Shown here: piece after piece, positions 3,563 through 38,068 of the stretch
How the letters are laid out: the number at the start of each line of letters is the position of its first letter
Numbering within the stretch: the first letter of the stretch is position 1
Source of the DNA: a virus
IMG/VR virus record: IMGVR_UViG_3300023184_000033
Location: 99,825-163,824 of that record
DNA: 64,000 bases
Reading direction: 5' to 3' (one strand)
Notes under the pieces: generated by a model
The model's input: only the letters and a program-made list of their open reading frames with translations
Told to the model about the DNA's origin: nothing
The model's database searches: none
Translations under genes and position numbers: made by a program

Positions 3563-6500
3563 GATATTGCAATAGCTCTAAATTTCTTAATTTGTGGAAC
3601 AATTTCTGTTGCACCGGAATACATAACAACTTTAACAGCAAACGTTTGGAAAGAATTATGTATAACGCCATTACTTGTGTAGGAAATGTTATCCAAGAAA
3701 TAATTTTGTTCAATAAAGTCTGTGTAAGAAGATGAATTTTTTGTTACACTATCTATATTTGGAACTAGAATCCATGGTTTAGTAGTAAATGCACTTACAT
3801 CATCAGCAGCTAATACTTTAACAAACACATCAAAAGAAGTTCCACTCTGCATATTTGCATCAAACGTAACTTTAATACCTTTGGCATCAAATCCAGAAGC
3901 AAGTGTTACTGATCTTGTTACATATTTAGCAGAAGCATTACCACCACTTGCAGTAGTTTCTGGTATTGTAACATCAACTCTATCATTGATAATGTTATTA
4001 ATCATAATCATCGACATTCTATCTAGGTCAATAACAGGAGAAATGTTTTTATCAAGCGTTGCAAGTTTTGCTTTCACCAATGTGTCACCATAAGCTGTAT
4101 TATTTCTATATTTCTTTAATACTGTATTTTTATTAGCTAATAATGGAGTATATGATGTATCAAATATACCATCATTTTGGTTCATCATACTATAATCAAT
4201 AGATGTAGTATTATTAAAGTCCAACTCTTGTGAAATTAAATCTACAATTTCAAAATCAAATGCCTGTGCGGGAGCATCAGATTTAAATGTTGCTTCATAA
4301 GTTTTTGTTGTGTCAAATTGAGCATAATACAACTTGAACGATAAGTCTGAAGATTGGTCAGCAGTCCAAGTTGAACCATTTTGCGATATAAACAAACTAC
4401 CAATATTTGGTTGTTCTGAGACTGTATTTGTTGAGCCAATTTGTTTTTGTCCCACAGTCGCATAATATACTTTTGTTTTACTGCTATTTGAACCAACAAC
4501 AATTGCATATTCGCCAGGTTGCAGATAGACAGGATCAGCAAATCTAAACAAAGTTTCAACAGATGCATCGGTTGATGTGTTTATATCATAAGGATTTTTC
4601 CAAACAGTTGATGATGGAATAACTTTAGTGGAATTTGGATATCCATTAACTGTAGGTCTAATCTGTGCAAACACAGGCAACTTATCATCAACACTTTCAA
4701 AATACAAACTAACACCAGTCAAGAAAACACCGTTAGGATAAATTCCTGCAGGAACAAAGAATGTCTGTGCTAATGGATCAGTAGTACAGGCTATGAATGA
4801 GGTTCTACTACCAAATGGTTCTTTGTTTGCTTTTGCAGCTGCTTCAAAATCAGCTCGGATTTTCGCATCTGCTTGAAGTGCCGTCAGGCCAAACTGTGTG
4901 CCACCCATAATAATATTTTCAGCAGCCAGAGCACCTCTACTAGTCCATATTGTTCCACCTGCGGCATTTTTAATAGTAGCTGCATACCAAGAGGGATTTG
5001 TTCCCCAGGTAGTAGCTGCACCAGTTGTTCCTTGATTGTCAATCTTACACTTAATCTGGTGTGCGCCTGGAGCTAACCAGTTAACGGTAACATCTATGTA
5101 TAATTTTCCATCATTACTATTTGGCCAAGCCGGTGTTTTCCAATGTTCAGAATTCTTATATTTTCCAATAGGTTCATTATCAATCCAAACTTCAACATCA
5201 TCATCGGCACCAAATGATATTGTGTGATTAGAACCAAAAGCTTGAGTTGTTGTAAAATTTCTATAAATTGTAAATGTTTGGCCAGATTTTAGATTTGTGT
5301 TGTCTCCTTCAGCCACTGGATATACAGCATTTGCCGCAACAAACTCAACACCAGTATTATTAGTCAATCCCGTACCAGCACCAGTGATCGCATAAACAAT
5401 TGGTGAGGTCGTGGTGCTGCCCTGCTGTAACGCATAATATGCATTTAGCCAATAGATAAATCCTCCTAAGTCTGGATTTCTATTCAAGTTTGCTGGATTT
5501 CTATAATAAGAAAGTATAGTCGGCCCAGTAATTGCAATTGCCTCGGCTTTCATCGCTGCGTTTAACCATATTTTACCGCCGCCGGCCGGAGTACGAGAAT
5601 TTGGATCAGCAATTGCTTGGTTGTAAGTTTGAGTAGTTATCAGATATGTGTATGCCTCAATGGCTTCTTTCATAGTCAAACTAGAATCAACAAAGTCACC
5701 AATTTTTGGTTTAGTAAGTAATACACCCGTAGCAACACTTACAGCACTAGCCGTACTTTGAATTGTTGTTGTTTTATTTTGACTAATTGGAGCGTCTAGT
5801 TTTAATTCAACTGTTGCTGTTGACTTACTATAACCATTTAATGGATTAATATAAATTGCAATCGTTGCTGGCGTAGTGTCCGAAACAGAAATTGTTCCTG
5901 TAATTATATCTAATCTAGGAATTGTTCTGTTTTCAGCTTTGCCATATTTTTCGTAATGCCATTGACCAAATGCATCAATACCTTGTGTTGCAAATTTTCT
6001 AAAATCTGCATTAGCAAAATATGCAATTGCTTCTAACTCAACTGTTGCATAAATTTTGGTATAACCACCACTAAAAGTATTTGATGCATAAGAATTTGTA
6101 CCAGTTGCACCATCATTAAATAAAGATTTAATATCAGCATAAGAGTTGACATAAGCGGTGTAGTTAAAACCACCAGAAACGTTCAAAACAGTATTTGTAG
6201 ATGATGTTGCACCTTTAGTTAACCACATACCATCAACATTTGAGATGGTGAATGGTACTATAACAGAACCGCCAACATTTGTAGATGTAACGACATATGT
6301 GAGAGTCTCACTCATGTTTATACTAGTAGGTCCACTAACTGAATAAACTGCTGCCTTTGGACCAGAATAGAAAGATGTTGTTGCTTGTCTATTATCATTA
6401 AAATAAAATGTCCAAATATAAGAACCAACTCTAGTTACTACATAATCTAAAGTTGTTGTTGTGCCAGGAGGACTTAATGGTAGAGTACCACTAGCAGGAA

Positions 6501-34814: not shown

Positions 34815-35403
34815 AATCTTTAATTTTCTCTTGCAATATATTCTTCATTTTGTTCTTGTCGTAAAACAAAAACGGTTTGTATTTTTCACATTTATTTTTC
34901 AATTCAGGCCAAACAATATCATCAATAATCTTTTTCTCCCACATGGGAAAGAAGTTTAGTAAATCATTCAAAATAACCAGAGTTTCAATCGCAACTTTAC
35001 CATGCATTGTTTCTACCAACAACTTTGGATAGTTGCCCGATTCCACTTTGAAGATATTATTGTGATTATCTAATACGTGTATTATATCAGATTCAAACTG
35101 ATATGTCAAGCTCTGGATTCTTTTTTGCCACTTTTTATAGTTTTCTTCATTGTCAGGTCCTGTTATATCACCAACCCAATTAACGTCTTGGACTATGAAG
35201 TTGGAGATATAATAGTTCCTGAGTTCATCCAACGAGTATTTCCTAGACAAACGATAGAACGTAAACTTATCCTTTCTTATTGAAAAGGATTGTTTAGAAA
35301 CATTCGTTTTACCATGATACTTTACATAGTCATAAGAACCTGTGAAGTGTAACTTGAGAGCATGAAACATGGCAAACGCTGCGAAGCCAGTATTCTCACT
35401 CAT
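34801..35403 (-). CDS. 59: Replicative helicase loader gp59
   Basis: 200 residues, slightly shorter than T4 gp59 (217). The start AFAMFHALKLHFTGSYDYVKYHGKT..SFSIRKDKFTFYRLSRKY is the typical gp59 N-terminal block in T4-like phages. gp59 loads the gp41 helicase onto gp32-coated forks. The order gp33-gp59-gp32 is as in T4, and the start overlaps the gp33 stop by 4 nt. Confidence 0.85.
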   Translation of the reverse strand: MSENTGFAAFAMFHALKLHFTGSYDYVKYHGKTNVSKQSFSIRKDKFTFYRLSRKYSLDELRNYYISNFIVQDVNWVGDITGPDNEENYKKWQKRIQSLTYQFESDIIHVLDNHNNIFKVESGNYPKLLVETMHGKVAIETLVILNDLLNFFPMWEKKIIDDIVWPELKNKCEKYKPFLFYDKNKMKNILQEKIKDYAVS

Positions 35404-35621
35404 AACGGTAGTTTAGATGTTTTCCTTAGCATGTTAGCATCTTGCGCTTCTTCTCTAATACGACCTTTTAATGCGGCTGATATTAGAGAAGAAGCAACTT
35501 CAATTTCCAAGCCAGTTGTTTTACAATGTTCTAGGATGGCATCCATATGTGTACACCGCAAACGAATGGCCAAGTCTCTAATCATTAGACTGAATTCAGA
35601 TATTTCATTTTTAGTTGGCAT
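35400..35621 (-). CDS. 33: Late transcription co-activator gp33
   Basis: 73 residues. MPTKNEISEFSLMIRDLA..THMDAILEHCKTTGLEIEVASSLISAALKGRI resembles gp33 of exo-T-even phages. gp33 bridges RNA polymerase to the sliding clamp and activates late promoters with gp55. It is immediately upstream of gp59, as in T4. Confidence 0.8.
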   Translation of the reverse strand: MPTKNEISEFSLMIRDLAIRLRCTHMDAILEHCKTTGLEIEVASSLISAALKGRIREEAQDANMLRKTSKLPL

Positions 35622-36655: not shown

Positions 36656-36823
36656 TCAACTCGATTTTTTGGCTGATTTCTTAGCTTCTGCTTTCTTAGC
36701 TACAGGCTTAGCACTTTCTTTCTTAACTGTTGCTGCTGGTGCAGCCGGTTTTGCTGGTGCTGAAGATTGTGCGAAAGAAACAGTTGCGAATGATAACATT
36801 ACTAGTGCGATAATTGATTTCAT
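36656..36823 (-). CDS. Small exported Ala/Lys-rich protein
   Basis: 55 residues from the ATG at 36823, which has AAAGGA 8 nt upstream. A classic signal peptide (MKSIIALVMLSFATVSFA) is followed by a Lys/Ala/Pro-rich tail (KKAEAKKSAKKSS). The mature part is a short basic periplasmic peptide of unknown role. An in-frame upstream ATG would lie inside the tmRNA coding piece and is unlikely. Confidence 0.65.
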   Translation of the reverse strand: MKSIIALVMLSFATVSFAQSSAPAKPAAPAATVKKESAKPVAKKAEAKKSAKKSS

Positions 36824-36835
36824 ATTGATTCCTTT

Positions 36836-37016
36836 AAAAAATTTAAAACTGCAAGTTGATTCTGTTGCTAAGTTCAACTTGCAAAACTCCGATGAGGATT
36901 ACGCCGCCATCAAGAAACGTGAGTCGTTTGCTTTTACTTTATTTTCTTCTTTTTACATCGTTGCTGATGTGCTGTCCACTCATTTACTTGTTGCCCTGTC
37001 GAAACTATGCAGGCCC
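36836..37016 (-). ncRNA. ssrA: Two-piece tmRNA, coding (tag) piece
   Basis: The minus strand opens with GGGCCTG, then the conserved TTTCGACAGGG of the tmRNA tRNA-like domain, and contains the tag frame GCA AAC GAC ... TAA. GGGCCTG pairs with CAGGTCC of the acceptor piece at 37188-37264 to make a 7-bp acceptor stem with G3-U70, the alanine identity element. Because the 5' half is encoded after the 3' half, the gene is circularly permuted. A 10-bp hairpin (36850-36883) followed by TTTTAAATTTTTT probably ends the RNA, so the 3' end is approximate. Its role is ribosome rescue with host SmpB. Confidence 0.88.
36899..36931 (-). other. tmRNA proteolysis-tag reading frame (ANDSRFLMAA)
   Basis: Ten codons plus TAA starting at the resume codon GCA give ANDSRFLMAA. 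The AND start is shared with many proteobacterial tags (ANDENYALAA in E. coli). The end is L-M-A-A instead of A-L-A-A, which alters the residues read by ClpX. The upstream AGTAAAAGCAAAC matches the usual resume context. Confidence 0.85.
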
Positions 37017-37017
37017 A

Positions 37018-37176
37018 TCATAAAGATTTAATTTCTGTGATGATACTGTAGATGTTTGAGTATGTATTAGTTATTTCCTCTAGCTGTTGTTCTGATATAG
37101 AATCATTTACTTCAAAATGAACTAAGTCTTTAGCTAGATTCTCCTGTAATAATTTCAAACTATCTTGTTCATCCAT
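37018..37176 (-). CDS. 52-residue ORF inside the intervening segment of the permuted tmRNA
   Basis: The ORF starts 12 nt after the CCA end of the acceptor piece, with AAAGG placed 5 nt before the ATG. It ends with TGA one nucleotide before the G1 of the coding piece. It fills the intervening segment almost exactly. The product (MDEQDSLKLLQENLAKDLVH... ending TEIKSL) is acidic and helical with a coiled-coil look, like other small phage proteins. No homologue was recognised. It could be made from the excised intervening RNA or from unprocessed precursor. The reading frame and ribosome site are seen; expression is inferred. Confidence 0.6.
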   Translation of the reverse strand: MDEQDSLKLLQENLAKDLVHFEVNDSISEQQLEEITNTYSNIYSIITEIKSL

Positions 37177-37187
37177 ATAAACCTTTA

Positions 37188-37264
37188 TGGTGGACCTGGG
37201 GGGATTCGCACCCCCGTCCAGAACACTTTTCTCTTTGCTTCATACAGCAATATCACTTAATCAT
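37188..37264 (-). ncRNA. ssrA: Two-piece tmRNA, acceptor piece
   Basis: The minus strand ends with a T-arm (GGGGG-TGCGAAT-CCCCC), then CAGGTCC-A-CCA with an encoded CCA. The preceding TCTGGAC resembles the tmRNA P2/T-arm junction. The region is too short and lacks a D-arm and anticodon arm for a tRNA, which together with the partner piece supports tmRNA. The 5' end is set by the promoter at 37271-37299 and is approximate. Confidence 0.87.
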
Positions 37265-37270
37265 GTTATA

Positions 37271-37299
37271 ATTATATATCATTTAATGGCCATTGGCAA
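37271..37299 (-). promoter_or_regulatory. Sigma70-type promoter for the tmRNA
   Basis: Minus strand TTGCCA, 17-nt spacer, TATAAT. It begins 24 nt after the end of the nuclease gene and places the start about 75 nt before the CCA end. The same CTTGCCA..TATAAT pattern drives several early genes at 49-55 kb, so the tmRNA is probably made early by host polymerase. Confidence 0.8.
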
Positions 37300-37322: not shown

Positions 37323-37760
37323 TTAATTACACCAAGATTGTTTGGCTTCACCATAGTATTCACGTGCATATCCTTGTTGGATTAACATGTAACGTAAGGA
37401 TTGGCCATTCAATAGTACATCACCTAAAACACGGCCGCCATATTTGTCCCAATCCATCAATACCACTTGGCGTGTTGTAGATTGTTCTACCATTTTCTTA
37501 GTAAATGCACTAGCGGCTTGGCCACGTGCATCTTCTTCAGGACACTTTGCCCGAAATCCTTTTTCTGGAGTATCAACACCAAATACACGAATCGATAATT
37601 CTTTCTTTAGTGGATCAGGTAACCATAGTGCCTGAAATGCAACTGTATCACCATCAATAACTCTGGTGATAACTGCGTTGTATGTTACACCAGCTTTTTG
37701 TTGTTGTGCAAATGCTGGTAATGTGCAAATCATGCACAAAGCAATTAATAATTTTTTCAT
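37323..37760 (-). CDS. Secreted thermonuclease (staphylococcal nuclease-like)
   Basis: 145 residues from the ATG at 37760, which overlaps the upstream stop (ATGA). Residues 1-19 (MKKLLIALCMICTLPAFAQ) are a signal peptide. The SNase active site is seen as VIDGDTV, RVFGVDTPE and GGRVLGDV. The enzyme would cut DNA or RNA in the periplasm or outside the cell using calcium. A role in degrading foreign DNA or salvaging nucleotides is inference. A longer reading frame starting upstream lies in the neighbour gene and was discarded. Confidence 0.85.
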   Translation of the reverse strand: MKKLLIALCMICTLPAFAQQQKAGVTYNAVITRVIDGDTVAFQALWLPDPLKKELSIRVFGVDTPEKGFRAKCPEEDARGQAASAFTKKMVEQSTTRQVVLMDWDKYGGRVLGDVLLNGQSLRYMLIQQGYAREYYGEAKQSWCN

Positions 37761-38068
37761 TGTGTACAAGTCCTTGTTCTTGTTATTGTGCCGTCTGGAT
37801 TCTGAACTTCTGTCCATGGACTACAGACTGGTTGATTCTGTTGTTGTACAATAACAGGTTGTTGCTGTACTATTACAGGCGGTTGTTGTTTTGCAATTTC
37901 ATAACCAATCACACCACCGATAACTGTTGGTGCAACCCAAATCCAAGGACTTGGACCACCTCTATGTTGCCAATAACCATGGTGACCATAATGATAGTGT
38001 TGTGCCAATGCAGGCACTGGCATACATGATGTTAAAGTAATGCATAATGTTAATAGAAAGTTTTTCAT
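37757..38068 (-). CDS. Exported small protein with glycine-zipper segment
   Basis: 103 residues. A signal peptide (MKNFLLTLCITLTSCMPVPALA, with either signal peptidase I cleavage after ALA or a lipobox-like LTSC) leads to a His/Tyr-rich stretch. A hydrophobic WIWVAPTVIGGVIGYEIA follows, then a Gln/Pro/Val repeat (PPVIVQQQPVIVQQQ). Similar proteins are common in proteobacterial genomes and phages. It is coupled to the nuclease gene. Confidence 0.65.
   Translation of the reverse strand: MKNFLLTLCITLTSCMPVPALAQHYHYGHHGYWQHRGGPSPWIWVAPTVIGGVIGYEIAKQQPPVIVQQQPVIVQQQNQPVCSPWTEVQNPDGTITRTRTCTQ

Follow-up and report, generated by a model that had tools for sequence, protein, structure and literature searches.

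Protein genes in the spacers of permuted tmRNA genes of phages

The tmRNA locus and its 52-codon nested gene

The locus described here lies on the minus strand of a 64,000-nucleotide stretch of phage DNA, referred to as the window, which is part of a 163,824-base IMG/VR record. The neighbouring genes are T4-like (a phrog_298 exonuclease, the late-transcription coactivator gp33 and the helicase loader gp59), in keeping with the T4-like phage proposed by the first-pass annotation. The features of the locus, with the evidence for each, are as follows:

37271..37299 (-): promoter of sigma70 type, TTGCCA-N17-TATAAT, immediately before the tmRNA 3' piece (sequence)
37299-37294 and 37276-37271 (-): promoter hexamers TTGCCA and TATAAT, separated by 17 nt (sequence)
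37188..37249 (-): tmRNA 3' (tRNA-like) piece (RF04321 match starts at 37249; ARAGORN)
37215-37199 (-): T-arm GGGGG-TGCGAAT-CCCCC (sequence)
37198-37192 (-): acceptor 3' strand CAGGTCC, followed by A73 at 37191 and the encoded CCA at 37190-37188 (sequence)
37017..37187 (-): intervening sequence (IVS), 171 nt; its closing helix, TAAAGGTTTA/TAAATCTTTA, stacks onto the acceptor stem (fold; covariation)
37182..37186 (-): ribosome-binding site AAAGG, within the IVS-closing helix (sequence; pairing calculation)
37018..37176 (-): nested protein-coding gene, 52 aa, MDEQDSLKLLQENLAKDLVHFEVNDSISEQQLEEITNTYSNIYSIITEIKSL (homologs, pN/pS, codon positions, AlphaFold)
37017..37020 (-): TGAT, the nested-gene stop codon and conserved IVS end (present at most IVS ends)
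36899..37016 (-): tmRNA 5' (mRNA-like) piece (RF04321; ARAGORN)
37016-37010 (-): acceptor 5' strand GGGCCTG, then TTTCGAC (sequence)
36931-36899 (-): tag frame GCA..TAA, ANDSRFLMAA (ARAGORN)
36851..36882 (-): hairpin GCAAGTTGA/TCAACTTGC after the tag (sequence)

The first-pass annotation had read the locus as a permuted tmRNA, and the promoter, T-arm, acceptor strands, CCA and tag frame are all present where it had placed them on the minus strand; the acceptor strands pair over 7 bp with G3-U70, as it had described. The CCA end at 37188 precedes G1 of the 5' piece at 37016, putting the 3' piece first in the gene. The Rfam and ARAGORN comparison it had suggested is favourable in its main part, with RF04321 matching 36899-37249(-) at 99.1 bits (covariance-model cut-off 47; E 4.5e-18) and ARAGORN calling a tmRNA* with the tag ANDSRFLMAA; RF01850 (beta_tmRNA), the best among the lineage models shown, stays under its family cut-off (53.2 bits vs 84). 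Judged from sequence and covariance-model evidence, the permuted two-piece anatomy is almost certainly genuine.

On its 3' side, the mRNA-like piece probably ends at the hairpin that follows the tag; the RF01850 match extends to 36844, and the relative L086 has an equivalent post-tag hairpin built of different paired bases. The tmRNA is immediately followed by an ORF of 57 aa (36656-36829(-)) that is rich in Ala and Lys and has an N-terminus resembling a signal sequence; the hairpin motif of the tmRNA tail (TCCTCGTAAC.GAAT) appears a second time behind the counterpart of this ORF in L086. Tags in related loci include ANDSQFALAA. Tags of 28-31 residues, compared to the usual ~10, are predicted by ARAGORN in L185, L191, L199, L221, L228, L253 and L285 (e.g. 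ANADTFDFSAMSFTGNTVRGAANESRFALAA), loci whose cargo is unrelated in several cases. No SmpB was found in the 163,824-base record, and the tmRNA would thus need the SmpB of the host. As hypothetical roles of such an RNA, the first-pass annotation had named the freeing of ribosomes late in infection and the retargeting of tagged proteins.

Kin of the locus were gathered by scans with the exonuclease and gp59, giving ~150 viral contigs, and ARAGORN finds a permuted tmRNA in ~100 of the loci. Downstream of the tmRNA 5' end, the closest relative (L006/L086) shows 97% identity to the window, and the L086 tmRNA is preceded by identical promoter hexamers at the same 17-nt spacing. Its spacer, however, is a 62-nt noncoding hairpin compared to 171 nt in the window, and its acceptor reads GGGGGAG/CTCCTCC rather than GGGCCTG/CAGGTCC, so that pairs 4, 5 and 6 have changed on both sides. 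Divergence between the window and L086 runs from acceptor strand to acceptor strand, between flanks that are 97% alike. In L088, the 68 nt that correspond to window 37255-37188 are identical. The gene before the tmRNA encodes an SNase-like nuclease in the window (37323-37817), whereas L086 has a different, nonspecific-nuclease-like reading frame with a DKGHMSPDGDL motif at 5600-6206; the tmRNA therefore borders a swapped region.

The spacer of a permuted tmRNA is normally a short loop, and it has so far been treated as discarded. The gap of ~170 nt between the two pieces in the window, which the first-pass annotation had passed over as filler, actually holds a protein-coding gene: the ATG at 37176 lies 11 nt past the CCA, and the TGA (37020-37018) ends 1 nt before G1. 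This gene is very probably real, on the comparative evidence of its family. Members occur in IVSs with the acceptor CAGGTCC (L223) and in others with CACCTCC (L187, L218); pN/pS is 0.30-0.38 at a synonymous divergence of up to 0.81, indicating purifying selection, and differences between the window ORF and L345 are distributed 10/4/20 over codon positions 1/2/3 (P 0.002). The 52-aa protein is predicted to form a two-helix hairpin (AlphaFold, mean pLDDT 78).

Relatives of the window ORF surfaced only through the tmRNA pattern scan and an alignment query; an exact-peptide search with the ORF alone returned zero, its PHROG and Pfam matches were at chance level only, and tblastn against phage isolates found none. 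The alignment query matched 43 places, many of which are tmRNA spacers ending -KSL-stop-T-G1. The other places are free-standing homologs, most of which end differently (e.g. -DKPKE); the -SL tail is thus chiefly a feature of the spacer location rather than of the protein. Several free-standing homologs lie directly upstream of a tmRNA with a noncoding spacer or other cargo (L351, L380), a placement that suggests movement between free-standing and spacer positions.

In L351, L352 and L380-L386, the distance from the free-standing homolog to the CCA end of the tmRNA 3' piece is ~80 nt. Two other identities were considered and rejected: the window ORF is not the gp33 coactivator, which flanks phage tmRNAs elsewhere and is encoded here at 35400-35621, and a glutamine riboswitch like that of phage Melnitz is set aside as Rfam gives no match near the gene.

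Survey of spacers in viruses and cells

A viral pattern scan, in which T-arm, acceptor and CCA are followed by TAARG, yielded at least 120 stretches, and ARAGORN calls a tmRNA in 91 of the 120 viral stretches listed. A strict set drawn from all loci, requiring a perfect acceptor with G3-U70, contains 168 distinct IVSs; 93 are coding, being filled by an ORF (81-531 nt), and 75 are noncoding (25-256 nt), a ratio that is not a prevalence as the sample was enriched by the search patterns (CCA then TAARG). In a set of 78 IVSs of at least 80 nt, 60 carry an ATG within their first 25 nt and a frame that is open to the last 16 nt, compared to 3.6 expected under dinucleotide shuffles of the interior. 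The 165-nt spacer ORF of L043 has 12 relatives, all 12 in tmRNA spacers, with differing acceptor stems and tags and a length difference of 9 nt that keeps the frame. As judged across these loci, the coding spacer is a general arrangement found in dozens of related viruses.

The spacer ORFs fall into ~47 unrelated clusters, although a few very short frames could be chance. Recognised cargo includes Thioredoxin (Pfam, E 4e-21), an Oxidored-like protein (E 2e-10), HNH endonucleases and PGDYG, and other spacers carry what appear by eye to be one-helix membrane microproteins. The Oxidored-like protein is found in the spacers of L179, L205, L225, L237, L269 and L286 (PF09791 match for L286), and no standard start codon was seen for these ORFs inside the spacer. 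The spacers of L234 and L267 (215 and 256 nt) apparently hold two consecutive small ORFs each.

Two coding-spacer patterns run over 84,980 cellular species genomes gave 0 and 1 matches for TAAGGA-type starts, and one such spacer-start type is present in 71 viral contigs. The sole cellular match (L293, CALMJT010000228.1) is a phage-like contig with a coding-spacer tmRNA and an endolysin-like gene, from a metagenome-assembled genome labelled Alteromonadales. The coding-spacer pattern is essentially absent from cellular genomes as far as TAAGGA-type starts are concerned, other starts being able to escape the scan. Genuine permuted tmRNAs were few in the cellular class sampled (369 genomes), and the five strong ones, from the order of G026, extend over 190-191 nt compared to 351 in the window; cellular spacers were therefore assessed mainly by such pattern scans. 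In the phage isolates examined, six in all, the spacers are noncoding and measure 26-126 nt.

The spacer-closing helix and its possible roles

In the closing helix, base i of the IVS stands opposite base -4-i. Positions 1-10 of coding IVSs are paired in 88-100%, with position 7 paired in 94% compared to 47% after shuffling; noncoding IVSs form the same helix with a freer sequence. Comparison of the 168 IVSs indicates that the closing helix covaries, and acceptor pairs 4-6 likewise vary as pairs. One strand of the helix is the ribosome-binding site and the other encodes the last codons (-Ser-Leu-stop). Position 5 is G in 90/93 coding IVSs, with a partner that is mostly C or U, and is mixed in noncoding IVSs; the ribosome-binding strand is fixed in coding IVSs while the partner strand is not, a sequence pattern that bespeaks selection. 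TGAT, which is partly complementary to ACCA, stands at the IVS end in 83/93 coding and 50/75 noncoding cases and supplies the stop codon in 52/93 coding IVSs. A further 19/93 stop 12-16 nt before G1, and 22/93 have no stop before G1; as read from their frames, these 22 do not fit a single simple termination rule.

Accessibility was computed by folding isolated strands, a calculation that takes no account of ribosomes, RNase kinetics or coupling. In nascent RNA, where the closing strand is missing, the Shine-Dalgarno sequence of coding IVSs has a computed unpaired value of 0.49; the value is 0.06 once the precursor is complete and 0.10 for the excised spacer. For the AAAGG of the window, the corresponding probabilities are 0.54, 0.00 and 0.00.

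The locus is probably best explained overall as a genuine permuted tmRNA of a T4-like phage whose IVS is a docking site for a protein gene. Transcription from the TTGCCA/TATAAT promoter would give a single RNA with the tRNA-like piece first, then a whole small message and finally the mRNA-like piece, and the closing helix, continuous with the acceptor stem, would hold the tmRNA halves together for processing. Ribosomes would load on nascent RNA in which the closing strand is not yet made, and a translating ribosome would keep that strand single until termination at the UGA beside G1. The helix would then shut, which would silence the nested gene and make the RNA ready to be cut at G1 and behind the CCA, and the mature two-piece tmRNA with host SmpB would rescue stalled ribosomes. 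This translation/processing switch is put forward tentatively, with rather less than an even chance of being correct; we infer it along with expression, processing and the function of the protein. A wider proposal would combine a standing docking site for many unrelated small genes, a helix that switches from co-transcriptional translation to tmRNA maturation, and stop-less versions in which the tmRNA polices its own passenger; taken as a whole, it is possible but doubtful.

A rival account, to which we give nearly an even chance, takes the spacer as a neutral insertion site in which recombination occurs between the conserved tmRNA halves, expression is ordinary and there is no switch. The helix may then serve processing alone, and the ribosome-binding site may have evolved in an already purine-rich sequence. 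The ~47 unrelated cargo families, including HNH endonucleases that could drive their own spread, are what such a site might collect, and the window and L086 do differ between the acceptor strands within flanks that are 97% alike. Harder to reconcile with it are the fact that almost every coding spacer has its ribosome-binding site within the helix, the predicted closure of this site in the complete precursor and the C-terminal codons forced to fit the helix. Neutral insertion and the switch are about equally likely. For the 22 stop-less spacers, e.g. the L043/L160 family ending FLYV-GGG, cleavage at G1 could instead leave a nonstop message, with the tmRNA tagging and destroying the protein of its own spacer; arfA offers a precedent, its stop-less message being repressed by trans-translation (PMC10107115). 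Such regulation is unlikely, as frames in the uncut RNA terminate soon after G1 in several members, and it is inapplicable to the window, where the UGA lies inside the spacer.

Two further explanations are much less likely. The locus could be a standard phage permuted tmRNA whose noncoding spacer just happens to be long, the 52-codon frame being open by chance, and short noncoding spacers do occur in many relatives and in every isolate examined (26-126 nt). This is highly improbable given the protein homologs in other spacers and in free-standing positions, the purifying selection, the excess of open spacers (60/78 vs 3.6) and the recognisable domains in other spacers; we count it as already refuted by the conservation at the protein level. 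Alternatively, the tmRNA may be decaying and retained only for surrounding a useful protein gene. L348 and L350 keep the nested ORF despite a mismatched acceptor (GAGCCTG/CAGGACC), and their tmRNA has perhaps decayed, but the tmRNA of the window retains its acceptor, G3-U70, T-arm, CCA and tag undamaged, and the acceptor changes are compensatory, making decay very unlikely there.

Comparison with known tmRNAs

At least 93 distinct versions of the permuted-tmRNA spacer hold protein genes whose start and stop signals coincide with an RNA helix; they occur in phages and, as far as the cellular scans reach, hardly ever in cells. They provide a testable case of a single RNA that would be first a message and then part of a noncoding machine, as well as a catalogue of small phage proteins, which gene callers may skip because the genes sit inside an annotated RNA gene. 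The nested genes also account for the unusually long appearance of such tmRNA genes.

Two-piece tmRNAs are known from aquatic phages, being carried by Methylophilales phage Melnitz and Pelagibacter phage Mosig, and 53 distinct phage tmRNAs were predicted to be two-piece in a set of 18,146 genomes (PMC9004378). The window tmRNA as such is therefore not new; the unusual part of the locus is the protein-coding spacer. The 2025 tmRNA database, with 97,179 sequences of which 79 are from phage, describes permuted IVSs that contain a tRNA gene or a repetitive element, and group I introns that contain endonuclease genes, with no mention of a protein gene in an IVS (PMC11915505). No earlier report of a protein gene in a permuted tmRNA spacer was found in the open-access literature, although subscription journals could hold one.

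The window resembles the permuted tmRNAs of RF04321 (alpha, beta and cyano lineages) in gene order, G3-U70 acceptor, T-arm, CCA and tag frame, and differs from them in that its spacer encodes a protein. With Melnitz and Mosig it shares the combination of a T4-like phage and a two-piece tmRNA (PMC9004378); the Mosig tmRNA also lies between PD-(D/E)XK exonuclease and late-transcription coactivator genes, as in the window, but its spacer is a 44-nt noncoding hairpin. The permuted tmRNA of GCA-2688965 likewise has a second gene inside the IVS, though this is a single case and the gene is a tRNA-Ala rather than a protein gene (PMC11915505). Group I intron tmRNAs with homing endonuclease genes (PMC11915505) are similar in having a protein gene within a tmRNA gene; there the gene lies in a self-splicing intron in the T-loop, whereas in these phages it occupies the permuted spacer, is mostly not an endonuclease gene and has start and stop signals that form part of the helix closing the spacer.
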